From the NCBI RefSeq assembly GCF_003633895.1, contig NZ_RBID01000016.1, positions 186,001-250,000 of the forward strand: DNA of 64,000 bases, given 5' to 3'. Numbering within the stretch: the first letter of the stretch is position 1; every line of letters starts with the position of its first letter. Positions 546 through 64,000 of this stretch are shown piece after piece. Position numbers and translations under genes: made by a program. The notes under the pieces were generated by a model. The model was not told where the DNA came from and did no database searches. It saw only the letters and a list, made by a program, of their open reading frames with translations. This DNA comes from Vogesella indigofera (GTDB lineage: Bacteria > Pseudomonadota > Gammaproteobacteria > Burkholderiales > Chromobacteriaceae).

Positions 546-1093
546 GGAGAAAATCCTTCCTTCCAAATAGCAAGAGGCACCACCACCGGCGGTGCCCCGA
601 AATCCCGGAACCAGCTGTCGATCACCCAATCCTGGCCTGATGTCACGTCGCGCACGGCCACCGCCGCGTGATGGTCGAACAACAGTGGCGCACGGTGCAC
701 CTGGCCCAGCAGCTGGTGGTGGCGCAGCCAGCCCTTGCCGGCCAGCAACTGCAGCAGCACCAGCACATTATGGCTGTGATCGAGACAATCCATGCGGCCA
801 ACGTTGGCCGCATCCTCGTGATTGCCGCCGCGGTCGCTGGCAATCGGCGCCTCGCGCGCCGCGCGCTGGTAATAGGACAACACAATGTCCTGTAGTGCTG
901 CGCGCTCATCGGCGGCTTCGGCGGCCTCGTCCAGCCGCTGTTTAAACCAGATCAGGGCAGAGTCGTCCACTTCAATGCGCTGCGTGCGATCGCAGCCGTA
1001 ATGGTAACAGAGCGTCAGCACCTCCGCATCGGCGGCCACGGCCGGCAGCGCCGCGAGCAGCGCAATCGACAGCCAGCGCATGAGGGGTGGCAT
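542..1093 (-). CDS. exported protein with Cys-His-Asp pattern, transglutaminase/papain-like (function unknown)
   Basis: 183 residues with a signal peptide ([19 protein letters not shown]) and a mature domain holding MDCLDHSHN, then FDHHAAV and [10 protein letters not shown]. The order Cys, His, Asp with these surroundings is what transglutaminase- and papain-fold proteins show, so an envelope peptidase or transferase is possible; this is inference. The gene overlaps mnmA by 4 bp and follows nudJ closely, so all three are probably one transcript. Its middle (792-813) contains a perfect 22-bp palindrome made of two copies of the dispersed repeat, encoding AANVGR within the protein. The start may be the ATG at 1093 or the one at 1081. 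Confidence 0.7.
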
Positions 1094-1097
1094 CGGC

Positions 1098-1559
1098 TCA
1101 GCCTGGCAAGTGGTGGTGGATCAGATCGAGGCTGGCGCGCTGGCCGGCAAGGTAGTCCTGCAGGCAGCGTCCGACCAGCGGGCTGCGCCACAGCGCCGCG
1201 CTGGCCATGATCTCGTCCGCGCTCAGCCATTCGGCGGCGAGGATGCCGTCGTCCAGCCGCTGCGCCGGATCGTGCGCGCCGGCGTCACCGCAGAAGGCGA
1301 AGCGCAGATAGGTGATGTCGCTGCCGGTCTTGTCCGCCAGATAGATGCCGACCAGTGCCCGCGGCGTGAAGGCGTGGGCGGTTTCCTCGCGCGCTTCGCG
1401 CACCACCGCCTGCAGCAGGGTTTCGCCGTATTCCAGATGGCCGGCCGGCTGGTTGAGGCGGACGCCGTCGTCGGTCTGCTCGCGCACCATCAGGAAGCGG
1501 CCGTCGCGCTCGATGATGGCGGCGACTGTGGTATTCGGTTTCCATTGCGTGCTGCTCAT
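1098..1559 (-). CDS. nudJ: Nudix hydrolase NudJ-type phosphatase
   Basis: 153 residues. Residues ~40-60 form a Nudix box (GHLEYGETLLQAVVREAREE), the metal-binding and catalytic element of this superfamily. Opening with WKPNTTVAAIIERDGRFLMVRE and ending with a short helix resembles NudJ (YmfB), which hydrolyses nucleoside di- and triphosphates and thiamine/HMP pyrophosphate. In Escherichia coli nudJ also lies directly upstream of mnmA; here one exported-protein gene is interposed. Substrate is inferred from family and context only. Confidence 0.85.
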   Translation of the reverse strand: MSSTQWKPNTTVAAIIERDGRFLMVREQTDDGVRLNQPAGHLEYGETLLQAVVREAREETAHAFTPRALVGIYLADKTGSDITYLRFAFCGDAGAHDPAQRLDDGILAAEWLSADEIMASAALWRSPLVGRCLQDYLAGQRASLDLIHHHLPG

Positions 1560-1583
1560 CGCGGATTTGCCTTCCTCTTAATT

Positions 1584-1602
1584 GACAATCGTTATCATTG
1601 TC
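1584..1602. promoter_or_regulatory. Fur-box-like palindrome upstream of bfd
   Basis: GACAATCGTTATCATTGTC lies in the 88-bp divergent spacer between nudJ and bfd. It matches the classical Fur consensus GATAATGATAATCATTATC at most positions and has inverted ends GACAAT/ATTGTC. Bfd genes are commonly iron-repressed, so a Fur operator is expected here; binding is not shown. Confidence 0.6.
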
Positions 1603-1647
1603 TTCTAGTATGGATATCAAGATCAATTCTTATTCAGGATTCATGCC

Positions 1648-1842
1648 ATGTACGTCTGCCTTTGCCACGGAGTAACCGATCGCGATATCCGCGCCGCCGT
1701 TTGCAATGGTGCCACGCGCATGAGCGATCTGGCGCGCGAACTGAAGGTCGCCACCGAGTGCGGCAGCTGTGCCTGCCAGGCCAACCAGATCCGCAAGCAG
1801 ACACTGCTGCAGATCAGCGAGCCGGAACTGGCCGCCGCCTGA
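1648..1842 (+). CDS. bfd: bacterioferritin-associated ferredoxin
   Basis: 64-residue [2Fe-2S] protein that delivers electrons to bacterioferritin to release stored iron. The four cluster ligands are visible as C4-x-C6 at the start (YVCLCHGVT) and C38-x2-C41 (ECGSC). Full length for the family. The ATG at 1648 has AGGA about ten bases upstream. It stands alone, with a Fur-like box in front and a strong terminator behind. Confidence 0.93.
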   Translation: MYVCLCHGVTDRDIRAAVCNGATRMSDLARELKVATECGSCACQANQIRKQTLLQISEPELAAA

Positions 1843-1868
1843 ACCCGGCAATCTCCCGCAGTCACCAC

Positions 1869-1896
1869 AGCCCGTCAAGCACCTGACGGGCTTTTT
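1869..1896 (+). terminator. rho-independent terminator after bfd
   Basis: Stem AGCCCGTCA / TGACGGGCT (9 bp), loop AGCACC, followed by TTTT. Confidence 0.9.
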
Positions 1897-1976
1897 GCTA
1901 TCCTGAAAACAGCACGCCTGCTGCCAGTACCGGGGAACACGCGTACAATGCGCGCCAAACCTTACGGAGAACGAAC

Positions 1977-61953: not shown

Positions 61954-62448
61954 ATGAGATACCGCTCAACGCTGCTGCTGGCCTTGCTGGCACCGCTGCT
62001 GGCACAAGCCGGCGAGCCCAGCCCGGTGGAGAATGCCGTGGATGCCAAGATCAAGACCTGCATGGCACCGCTGAAGAAGGTGGCCAGTTTTATCGTCAAG
62101 GACGGCGGCCATGCCTCGCACGATATCTGGAATGACAAAGACGCCGACCGCCGGCCGTTTTCCAGCCTGATCGCCAAGAAGTATTCGGATGGCGACAGCC
62201 ACGTGTCGATGAGCGTCGGCCCGGACAAATCGGGCCGGTGTTCGGCGGAATACAACGAAACGGCGTACTGGCCGAAGGCCTGCACCGTGCTGCGCGAGGA
62301 AATCTACGGCGAGTTCAAGTATCACGCATCGCTGAACGAGAGCACCACCATCCTGCGCAACGACGACAAGTCGGTGTACGTGTACCTGACGCCGCAGATG
62401 CAGGGCAACGGTTGTCTCAGCACTCGCCGCGAGGTGATTTACTACTGA
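61954..62448 (+). CDS. exported hypothetical protein
   Basis: 164 residues. Signal peptide MRYRSTLLLALLAPLLAQAG; mature part with four Cys (IKTCMAPL, GRCSAEY, KACTVLRE, GNGCLSTR) that could form two disulfides. No family recognised. ATG 61954 is preceded by AAGGGGAGAGAAG. One motif copy lies in the upstream gap at 61842-61852. Confidence 0.7.
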   Translation: MRYRSTLLLALLAPLLAQAGEPSPVENAVDAKIKTCMAPLKKVASFIVKDGGHASHDIWNDKDADRRPFSSLIAKKYSDGDSHVSMSVGPDKSGRCSAEYNETAYWPKACTVLREEIYGEFKYHASLNESTTILRNDDKSVYVYLTPQMQGNGCLSTRREVIYY

Positions 62449-62458
62449 GCGGCCGTTG

Positions 62459-62531
62459 CCAGGGTTGGCCGCAGCGTTGCGGCCAACCCTGGGCACAACC
62501 CAAAAAACGCGCCATCCCCGGATGGCGCGTT
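62459..62531. terminator. inverted motif pair plus terminator between convergent genes
   Basis: CCAGGGTTGGCCGCA / TGCGGCCAACCCTGG (15-bp arms, loop GCGT, 62459-62492), then AACGCGCCATCC / GGATGGCGCGTT (62506-62531) preceded by an A-run, a terminator for the minus-strand gene. Confidence 0.9.
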
Positions 62532-62570
62532 GTCGTTGGCGGATGGTGTACTGCGAGTGCCCGGACCGGC

Positions 62571-62990
62571 TCAGTTGCCCTTGCCTTTGCCGCCACCGTT
62601 ACCGCCGCCACCGCCGTTACCCCCGCGCTGGCTGCCGCCACTCTTGCCCTTGCTGCCGGGGCTGCCCAGATCAACGGTGCTGCTCTTGCTGGCCGGGATG
62701 GCGGCCCGCACGCCGGGAATGGCCGGCGCAGTGCCGGAACGGGTGGTGACCGGCTTGCCGTTGATGGTCAGCGATGCGCGCACGCGGTTGAGATCGCCCT
62801 GGGTGATGCCCTTGATCGCCAGCAGGTCACGGCTGCTGCTAAAGGTGGTGCTCAGCTGCGCGTCGACGATGCGCTGCGCATCGGCGGTGCTGAAACCGGC
62901 GGCCACCAGCTCGTCGTAGCTGGCGTCGTTGATGTCCAGCGCCATGGCCGGCGCCGCCAGCAGGCTGAGCAGGATGATCAGTTGCTTCAT
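62571..62990 (-). CDS. exported helix-hairpin-helix protein, ComEA-like, with Gly-rich tail
   Basis: 139 residues. Signal peptide MKQLIILLSLLAAPAMA, then two helix-hairpin-helix-like units (DINDASYDELVAAGFSTADAQRIVDAQ and FSSSRDLLAIKGITQGDLNRVRASL) as in the ComEA/T2SK-like DNA-binding fold, and a tail rich in Gly, Lys and Ser (residues ~110-139). GGGAGGACACC precedes the ATG. A periplasmic DNA receptor role is inferred from the fold; ComEA proteins are central to natural transformation. Confidence 0.75.
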   Translation of the reverse strand: MKQLIILLSLLAAPAMALDINDASYDELVAAGFSTADAQRIVDAQLSTTFSSSRDLLAIKGITQGDLNRVRASLTINGKPVTTRSGTAPAIPGVRAAIPASKSSTVDLGSPGSKGKSGGSQRGGNGGGGGNGGGKGKGN

Positions 62991-63076
62991 GGTGTCCTCC
63001 CGGATAAGCGACAGTGCAGTATAGTTCGCGCCGCCGCGGGCGCCGGCCTTGTTGCGTCGGCGTGTCCGGCATGAAA

Positions 63077-63103
63077 AAACGCGCCATCGGTGATGGCGCG
63101 TTT
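63077..63103. terminator. terminator after glcB
   Basis: AAACGCGCCATC / GATGGCGCGTTT, loop GGT; on the minus strand it is followed by a T-run (plus-strand AAAAAA). Confidence 0.9.
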
Positions 63104-63126
63104 GCGGGGCGATGGGGCGGTGGCGC

Positions 63127-64000
63127 TTACTGCGCCTTGGCCACGAGACGCCAGGCGTGCAGCAGCGGCTCGGTGTAGCCGGACGGCTGCGCGCAGCCCT
63201 TGAACACCAGGTCGCAGGCGGCCTTGAAGGCAACGGATGTCTCGAAATTGCCGGCCATGTTCTGGTACAGCGGGTCGCCGGCGTTCTGCTGGTCCACCAC
63301 TGCCGCCATGCGCTTGAGCGTTTCCATCACCTGCGCCTCGCTGGTGATGCCGTGGCGCAGCCAGTTGGCAATGTGCTGGCTGGAGATGCGCAGCGTGGCA
63401 CGGTCTTCCATCAGGCCGACGTTGTGGATGTCCGGCACCTTGGAGCAGCCGACGCCCTGGTCGATCCAGCGCACCACGTAGCCGAGGATGCCCTGCGCGT
63501 TGTTGTCCAGCTCCTGCTGGATTTCGGTGGCGCTCCACTGAGGGTTGGCCGCAACCGGAATGGTCAGCAGCTCGTCCAGCACGTCGATTTGCTGGCCTTC
63601 CAGCCCTTGTTGAACCTGTTGCACGTTGACCTGGTGGTAGTGCAGCGCGTGCAGCACGGCGGCGGTGGGCGACGGCACCCAGGCGGTGTTGGCGCCGGCT
63701 TTCGGGTGGCCGATCTTCTGCTTCAGCATTTCTGCCATCAGGTCCGGCATCGCCCACATGCCCTTGCCGATCTGGGCGTGGCCGCGCAGGCCGCAATCGA
63801 GGCCGACCTGCACATTGCTGCGCTCGTAGGCGGTGATCCACTTGCTGGTCTTCATGTCGCCCTTGCGGATCATCGGGCCGGCTTCCATCGCGGTGTGCAT
63901 CTCGTCACCGGTACGGTCGAGGAAGCCGGTGTTGATGAAGGCGACGCGGTGGCGCGCGGCGGCGATGCAGGCCTTGAGGTTGACGCTGGTGCGGCGCTCC
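63127..64000 (-). CDS. glcB: malate synthase G (5' part outside window)
   Basis: The last ~290 residues. [69 protein letters not shown], and [43 protein letters not shown] are malate synthase G segments. Condenses glyoxylate and acetyl-CoA; makes sense together with the beta-oxidation block. One motif copy in frame at 63542-63553. Confidence 0.95.

Follow-up and report, generated by a model that had tools for sequence, protein, structure and literature searches.

What question does a short, asymmetric DNA word raise when it recurs on both strands throughout a bacterial chromosome? The case considered here is the 9-base core GTTGGCCGC in a stretch of 64,000 nucleotides from Vogesella indigofera (assembly GCF_003633895.1, contig NZ_RBID01000016.1, positions 186,001 to 250,000), which is called the window below and to whose first letter all positions refer unless another contig is named. 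Vogesella is a genus of the Chromobacteriaceae in the order Neisseriales, the order of Neisseria, and one protein encoded in the window is 97–98% identical to Vogesella counterparts, its closest named relatives. The original prediction, made from the letters of the window, was that the repeat is a candidate new dialect of the DNA uptake sequence (DUS), which has so far been described as a feature of the Neisseriaceae with an invariant CTG core. Sequence comparison across the family indicates that the repeat is probably the uptake sequence of a divergent system in which the minor pilin ComP would serve as receptor.

Abundance and shape of the motif

Counted on both strands, the window holds 51 exact copies of the core, against a mean of 2.31 and a maximum of 6 in 100 dinucleotide shuffles, and a search for AASGTTGGCCGCAR with at most two mismatches returns 57 matches versus 2.82 in the shuffles. 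Since 16 of the 51 copies form eight exact inverted pairs within 40 bp, the copies occupy 43 places, in agreement with the hand count of some 50 copies spread over roughly 43 loci, whose coordinates were correct or displaced by 1–3 bases. The whole 3.62-Mb genome contains 2,581 copies (1,287 forward and 1,294 reverse), compared with 57 for the pattern read backwards as a control. This amounts to 0.71 copies per kb, or about one copy per 1.4 kb, and a genome-wide count near expectation, one of the outcomes that had been named as fatal to the prediction, did not occur.

Composition was analyzed in a 464-kb sample of the genome, made up of the window and 400 kb of further stretches, which contains 327 core sites. 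At every word length from 8 to 12, words derived from GTTGGCCGC rank as the most over-represented in this sample; the top 12-mer, AGGTTGGCCGCA, is observed 144 times, where an order-4 Markov model predicts 0.4. The logo over the 327 sites reads c-A-A-S-GTTGGCCGC-A-a and bears out the extended flanks that had been proposed. Upstream, C is found at -4 in 62% of sites, A at -3 in 78%, A at -2 in 82%, and G or C at -1 in 62% and 31%; downstream, the first base past the core is A in 83%, and the second is A in 50% or G in 24%. Beyond -4 to +10, information does not exceed 0.15 bits at any position. The motif is directional and about 14 bp long, with the native form AAGGTTGGCCGCAA, and GTTGGCCGAA is part of it. 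Because the information is confined to about 14 bp, neither a larger mobile repeat that spreads the motif nor the edge of one is present, and a mobile repeat or a family of repetitive extragenic palindromes (REP) or miniature inverted-repeat transposable elements (MITE) was ruled out.

Clade-specific dialects and a ComP ortholog

The core is abundant in all 13 Vogesella genomes searched, at 2,312–3,490 copies and 39–118 times the reversed controls, with 2,499 copies in V. margarita, 2,449 in V. alkaliphila, 2,312 in V. fluminis, 3,490 in V. oryzae, 3,461 in V. urethralis, and 3,300 in V. aquatica. Elsewhere it is found 77–269 times in 24 other genomes of the family and 10–187 times in 24 genomes of other families, or approximately 0.5–4 times the controls. 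A sister dialect, GTTGGCCGA, was first seen by word counting in samples of sister genera and then searched for genome-wide in 61 genomes of the family; it reaches 321–2,363 copies in 10 genomes from six other Chromobacteriaceae genera, including Crenobacter luteus (1,780), strain JH1-16 (2,363), Crenobacter oryzisoli (889), and an uncultured Aquitalea (1,453). Vogesella uses the GCA form, genus g4, which includes C. luteus, mostly the GAG form, and the other sampled sister genera the GAA form. Copies of GTTGGCCGA number 41–123 in Vogesella (0.7–2.7 times the control) and 45–185 in the other 38 family genomes, save two of genus g8 with 308 and 252; for 14 of the 38 a count of GTTGGCCGC was made as well, and every one of the 14 holds 77–269 copies. 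Eight named Chromobacterium and five named Aquitalea (five of the six Aquitalea genomes) contain at most 251 copies of either dialect. The dialects follow clades: GTTGGCCGC is high only in Vogesella, and no genome counted for both is high for both. In 40–140 kb each of the motif-less genera (G035 and G018 of g7, G019 of g8, g9, and G030 of g6) no DUS-like 9-mer was found, and 80 kb of one genome (G254) of a third family, f41, which has a ComP-like gene, yielded no repeated motif.

The competence genes whose absence would have told against the original prediction are present, as the genome encodes ComEC, DprA, and ComEA. ComEC and DprA are weak evidence, since each family also matches 10 of 14 control genomes, including Escherichia coli. 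Nine prepilin-type genes are found in the genome, four of them in one minor-pilin operon at 14.9–18.0 kb of the window. The Pfam family ComP_DUS matches 56 of the 61 genomes in the sample of relatives and none of the 14 controls. The candidate ComP ortholog is encoded outside the window, on the minus strand of contig C11 at 94160–94585. Searched alone against the PDB, it matches 2nba over the globular part (E 8e-10) in fifth rank, and the four pilin chains that outrank 2nba match the shared helix. With a profile of 20 Chromobacteriaceae ComP sequences, 2nba (8e-21), 2m3k (3e-19), and 5hz7 (1.5e-18) lead the ranking despite matching only outside the conserved helix, and the next pilin follows at 1e-12. 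By their entry names, 2m3k and 5hz7 are ComP and 2nba is a prepilin-type protein, which we take to be a Neisseria ComP.

A tree of 62 rows places the ComP sequences of Chromobacteriaceae, Neisseriaceae, and the third family together on one side of a 99/96 branch, opposite a set of 20 generic pilins plus three that belong to other families. Vogesella ComP forms a single clade (100/99) on a long stem. The tree leaves out G015, G029, and the Neisseriaceae genome G286, for which fixed-flank extraction gave sequences that were too short, as well as G021. A ComP-type sequence is present in all 23 motif-bearing genomes of the family, with W-P-x-L-P in 22 and M-P-N-L-P in G021.

One further pilin deserves mention here. 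The first gene of the minor-pilin operon (14877–15296, plus strand) matches Pfam ComP_DUS with an E value of 2e-19 and was considered as ComP, but it was rejected, as its 23 PDB matches include PilE 4noa and no ComP, and it falls among the generic pilins in the tree. The genes that follow on the plus strand encode a FimT/GspH-type minor pilin (15298–15858), which is associated machinery, a prepilin-type minor pilin (15852–16442), a protein with no Pfam match above the cut-off (16420–17553), and another prepilin-type minor pilin (17538–17969). By position, the last three are presumably PilW-like, PilX-like, and PilV-like, respectively.

Several enriched or relic-like words were noted in passing. 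In the two g8 genomes with raised counts, G027 and G036, GTTGGCCGA occurs 308 and 252 times versus 94 and 87, and no ComP match was found at E 1e-8; these copies may be what is left of a decaying sister dialect. The palindromic 8-mer CGATATCG is enriched in samples of g6 and g9 (on both strands, 30 versus 5.8 in g9 and 14 versus 1.6 in G017). G021, of genus g10, has a repeat containing TATAGCTATA, with a both-strand count of 20 that lies entirely within 40 kb, and GCTTAAGC at 40 versus 2.4 expected in 120 kb. Finally, TTGCCGGAG is enriched about four-fold in the V. indigofera sample (17 versus 4.4 in 464 kb) and is found at 7 versus 0.5 in G018.

Placement of the copies and competing explanations

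If the repeat is the uptake sequence of a ComP-linked system, free double-stranded Vogesella DNA, carrying about one copy per 1.4 kb, would be bound through the motif at the cell surface by the ComP ortholog, which is a type IV minor pilin. The DNA would then be drawn in by ComEA and the pilus machinery, ComEC would pass a single strand into the cytoplasm, and DprA would aid its recombination. Under this proposal, transformation itself would spread and maintain the copies, because motif-bearing DNA would be preferentially taken up and recombined, and inverted pairs of the motif may have been reused as transcription terminators. The original identification of a candidate dialect is the best-supported reading: a directional tag some 14 bp long, with 0.71 copies per kb, is found throughout the genus and is specific to its clade, the other well-studied family of the order has DUS, and the genome encodes a ComP ortholog along with ComEC, ComEA, and DprA.

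A number of observations weigh against this interpretation. Biased uptake through the motif in Vogesella is itself a prediction from sequence, and the association of GTTGGCCGC with one ComP clade, that of Vogesella, amounts to just one event in evolution. ComP-type sequences also occur in 24 of the 27 motif-less family genomes inspected (of 38), so ComP alone is no predictor of the motif; in the other three, G020 and G033 have a generic pilin as best match and G019 has no match to the ComP pattern. Separation of the Neisseriaceae and Chromobacteriaceae ComP from that of the third family is weak (80/83). Among the residues corresponding to R78, K94, and K108, electropositive stripe residues that other work has shown to be important in Neisseria ComP, only the K94 site is basic (R) in the 13 Vogesella ComP sequences, and in seven aligned ComP sequences from genomes with the GTTGGCCGA dialect a basic residue is found at R78 in two, at K94 in three, and at K108 in none. 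Only one pair of cysteines (two columns) is invariant in the Chromobacteriaceae alignment, and the Neisseria cysteine adjoining R78 is absent, which leaves the two-disulfide pattern incomplete. The net charge of the globular part ranges from -2.1 to +4.9 in Vogesella and from -0.2 to +8.8 in Neisseriaceae. Within 1.5 kb on each side of comP, no neighborhood common to Vogesella and Neisseria was found. None of the 27 single-mismatch variants of the core is in excess, unlike kingDUS, and depletion of the motif in foreign DNA is only anecdotal. The objection from the stripe residues is weakened by two Neisseriaceae genomes: G224, which carries king and sim DUS and whose ComP has the best Neisseriaceae score against the Chromobacteriaceae profile, shows A, R, and E at the three sites, as in the Vogesella type, and G187, with AG-DUS, does not keep R78.

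The alternative that survives best accepts an uptake sequence and assigns it to another minor-pilin receptor, for example the FimT/GspH pilin of the window or the pseudopilin encoded just upstream of comP, with the likeness to Neisseria DUS being convergent. A prepilin-type protein lies directly upstream of comP at the three Vogesella loci compared (34–37% identity; 1048–1504 in comP orientation at one locus). It is FimT/GspH-like by eye only, and could take part in DNA binding. Together with the altered stripe residues and a Vogesella 12-mer that on its own is weakly DUS-like (8/12, P 0.05–0.08), these two pilins lend the alternative some substance. It is nonetheless unlikely given the strength of the ComP orthology in both profile ranking and tree, the 9/12 match of the sister dialect to AG-simDUS (P about 0.01), and the experimental evidence that ComP is the receptor for DUS in the Neisseriaceae, the sister family (PMC12061091).

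Whether the repeat is instead mainly a terminator or hairpin element copied around the genome can be judged from its placement. A simple, home-made gene caller was used, and called genes cover 80–82% of the sequence. Wholly inside called genes are 177 of the 327 sites (0.47/kb), and the other 150 (1.72/kb) give a noncoding density 3.7-fold higher. Every one of the 45 core pairs at most 40 bp apart in the 464 kb is inverted, with no direct pair among them; 40 lie outside called genes, 29 fall in the interval that runs from 60 bp before a stop codon to 150 bp past it, and TTTT occurs within 15 bases outside the pair in 17, versus 4.3% at random places. Two layouts recur, one of abutting cores that make an 18-bp palindrome and the other a hairpin with a loop of 15–16 bases. 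Close inverted pairs, T runs, and noncoding enrichment are what a terminator element would leave, but at most 90 of the 327 sites are in close pairs, single full-consensus copies are unable to form a hairpin, and terminators require no fixed 14-bp sequence common to a genus. The single and coding copies largely refute this explanation, which is very improbable.

In the window, the abutting pairs lie at 794–811 (an 18-bp palindrome), at 12393–12410 just 3' of a called gene end, at 49977–49994 past a called gene end, and at 60273–60290. Further pairs are found past called gene ends at 46136–46160 and 62464–62487, and two of hairpin type are followed by T runs, with a 16-base spacer at 55802–55835 and a terminator-like 15-base spacer at 57397–57429. 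Nine inverted pairs had been listed originally, of which these eight are exact; in the ninth, the minus-strand core at 24041–24049 faces an imperfect partner (CTTGGCCGC) at 24050–24058. The remaining cores stand singly and are likewise exact matches. On the plus strand they occur at 2571–2579, 6236–6244, 7602–7610, 9108–9116, 13363–13371, 17526–17534 (within the minor-pilin operon), 22755–22763, 23666–23674, 34060–34068, 39834–39842, 43678–43686, 47559–47567, 51583–51591, 55503–55511 (opening a dense cluster), 55568–55576, 55726–55734, 56191–56199, 61844–61852, and 63544–63552. Those on the minus strand are at 4840–4848, 7975–7983, 9277–9285, 10605–10613, 18273–18281, 22318–22326, 26172–26180, 31588–31596, 35108–35116, 35489–35497, 35991–35999, 39554–39562, 42459–42467, 52597–52605, and 59486–59494. 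Between 55400 and 55900, a mosaic of short repeats of the GGGTGCGTCACCCGGC... and GGATAAGCCGTAGGCGCATCCGGG... types is interleaved with five copies of the motif.

The sites are conserved. When 14 sites of the metZ region were compared with five diverged Vogesella-type loci (80–82% identity), the core was intact in 35 of the 60 cases that could be aligned, comprising 15 of 37 in called genes and 20 of 23 outside called genes, and GC-matched coding 9-mers (matched for guanine-plus-cytosine content) are intact in 14–21% at the same five loci. As these loci are related to one another, the counts are not independent. In three close relatives, 38 of 42 sites of this region are intact versus 60–65% of control 9-mers.

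Two motif-poor spots were picked after the fact. The window has no core at 52,606–55,502 (GC 45%, with an OLD-like ATPase), and this stretch at 52.6–55.5 kb is an AT-rich island of 45% GC versus about 64% in the 464 kb of the genome. Within it, at 53105–54886, two consecutive frames match AAA_15/AAA_21 (OLD-like) ATPases, one in the N-terminal part and the other in the C-terminal part, and are possibly one gene split in two. The second, on contig C1 at 36,375–88,604, has 9 core starts in 52 kb at a GC content of 58% and includes a YagK/YfjJ-domain gene, a KAP NTPase, GGDEF proteins, and an outer-membrane efflux gene. The idea that such a desert proves foreign DNA was dropped, and the low-density region is not relied on, because its genes are mixed and partly ordinary.

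The last alternative, a site for a methyltransferase, a chromosome-organizing protein, or a recombination or segregation system, can draw on the existence of dispersed, abundant motifs of these kinds and on the GGCC within the motif, but is very improbable, since restriction sites are usually avoided and the motif is enriched about 45-fold, strand polarity is slight, the motif as a whole is not palindromic, and inverted pairs at gene ends and clade dialects in a DUS-bearing order would be left unaccounted for. Chi and the FtsK-orienting polar sequences (KOPS) show a strong one-strand bias relative to replication. No such polarity was seen when strand was compared with GC skew: in four Vogesella genomes, counting only 20-kb pieces with skew above 0.015, the G-rich strand carries 264 copies and the C-rich strand 228, in keeping with the near-equal use of strands described originally. 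HIP1 and other cyanobacterial iterated palindromes also provide thousands of copies of a short motif, but HIP1 is palindromic, while the Vogesella motif is directional with asymmetric flanks.

With a ComP-linked uptake sequence as the preferred explanation, we lean toward a history in which the ComP-DUS system predates the split between Neisseriaceae and Chromobacteriaceae, the latter having a CCG core and at least three dialects (GCA, GAA, and GAG), and in which Chromobacterium and most Aquitalea lost the motif but kept ComP. If true, the finding in the sister family of a related system whose core differs would put a date on the origin of DUS and show that the core can change, and the two families would form a natural experiment on the joint change of a pilin receptor and thousands of genomic targets. 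Genera that have ComP but lost the motif would offer a comparison for what maintains uptake sequences. The system would also give a handle for genetics in environmental bacteria, in which transforming DNA could be tagged with the right 14-mer, and would supply matched pairs of receptor and motif for working out how ComP reads DNA, the ComP-DNA complex being described as still unresolved in PMC12061091.

Comparison with known uptake sequences

The uptake signal sequence (USS) of the Pasteurellaceae, AAGTGCGGT or ACAAGCGGT, is likewise a dispersed uptake motif for self-recognition that occurs in dialects. Its predicted receptor is PpdA/ComN, and the extended motif combines a GCGG core with an AT-rich tract (PMC12616744). 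The Vogesella logo differs in having no AT-rich tract, with no position outside -4 to +10 above 0.15 bits. GCGG is found in the reverse complement of the Vogesella motif, but since the GAA sister dialect has none, this likeness looks coincidental.

The eight DUS dialects described in PMC3630211 and PMC12061091, among them such forms as ATGCCGTCTGAA, AGGCCGTCTGAA, AGGCTGCCTGAA, and AAGCAGCCTGCA, all have the CTG core at +6 to +8. For Laribacter, 'Lutiella', Pseudogulbenkiania, and Chromobacterium, represented by five genomes, Frye et al. (2013) report that no DUS was obvious (PMC3630211). Among the open-access matches listed (e.g., PMC10715097, PMC11316581, PMC12616744, PMC7371117, PMC2924362), as far as their accessible text goes, no description of DUS in Chromobacteriaceae was found. 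As a positive control, word counting finds the known DUS in six of seven Neisseriaceae genomes at about 0.8–1.9 per kb, yielding AGGCCGTCTGAA, ATGCCGTCTGAA, or the king/sim pair, and none in 40 kb of G147; the seven were picked by the ComP profile, and their assignment to Neisseriaceae follows from the DUS found.

By the published definition, the Vogesella motif stands outside the classic DUS set, because it has no CTG core and its host family, Chromobacteriaceae, lies outside Neisseriaceae. T at +7 is C in the Chromobacteriaceae dialects seen, so that CCG stands here in place of the CTG that is reported to be invariant and essential. A further difference is that the kingDUS count rises by 21% when one mismatch is allowed (PMC3630211). 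The receptor differs as well, with two of the three stripe residues changed and one invariant cysteine pair instead of two. The absence of the CTG core that had been pointed out originally therefore stands, but the motif is less unlike known DUS than was supposed and is possibly homologous. The 12-mer of the sister dialect, AGGTTGGCCGAA, agrees ungapped with AG-simDUS AGGCTGCCTGAA at 9 of 12 positions (P 0.007–0.010), and the Vogesella form AGGTTGGCCGCA agrees with DUS at 8 of 12, as given above. Both were compared with random or permuted 12-mers against seven dialects on either strand at offsets of at most 2, in a 12-mer register chosen after seeing the DUS; wadDUS was left out for its insertion, and the letters of AG-mucDUS are those we take it to have. 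The match of AGGTTGGCCGAA to AG-simDUS is suggestive, not proof, of a relation. Letters for the six other dialects come from PMC12061091 and PMC10715097.

In the alignment, C at +6 and G at +8 are shared, positions that Frye et al. call conserved (PMC3630211), A at +10 is found in the GCA and GAA dialects as in DUS, with G in the GAG dialect of g4, and King3DUS has C at +9, as in Vogesella (PMC3630211, PMC10715097). Like DUS, the motif comprises 12–14 non-palindromic base pairs present in thousands of copies on both strands, forms clade-specific dialects, is arranged as inverted pairs at gene ends, and accompanies a ComP ortholog in the genome. Judged by the modestly significant alignment of the sister dialect with AG-simDUS, the Chromobacteriaceae motif could be a homolog of DUS whose CTG has turned into CCG.

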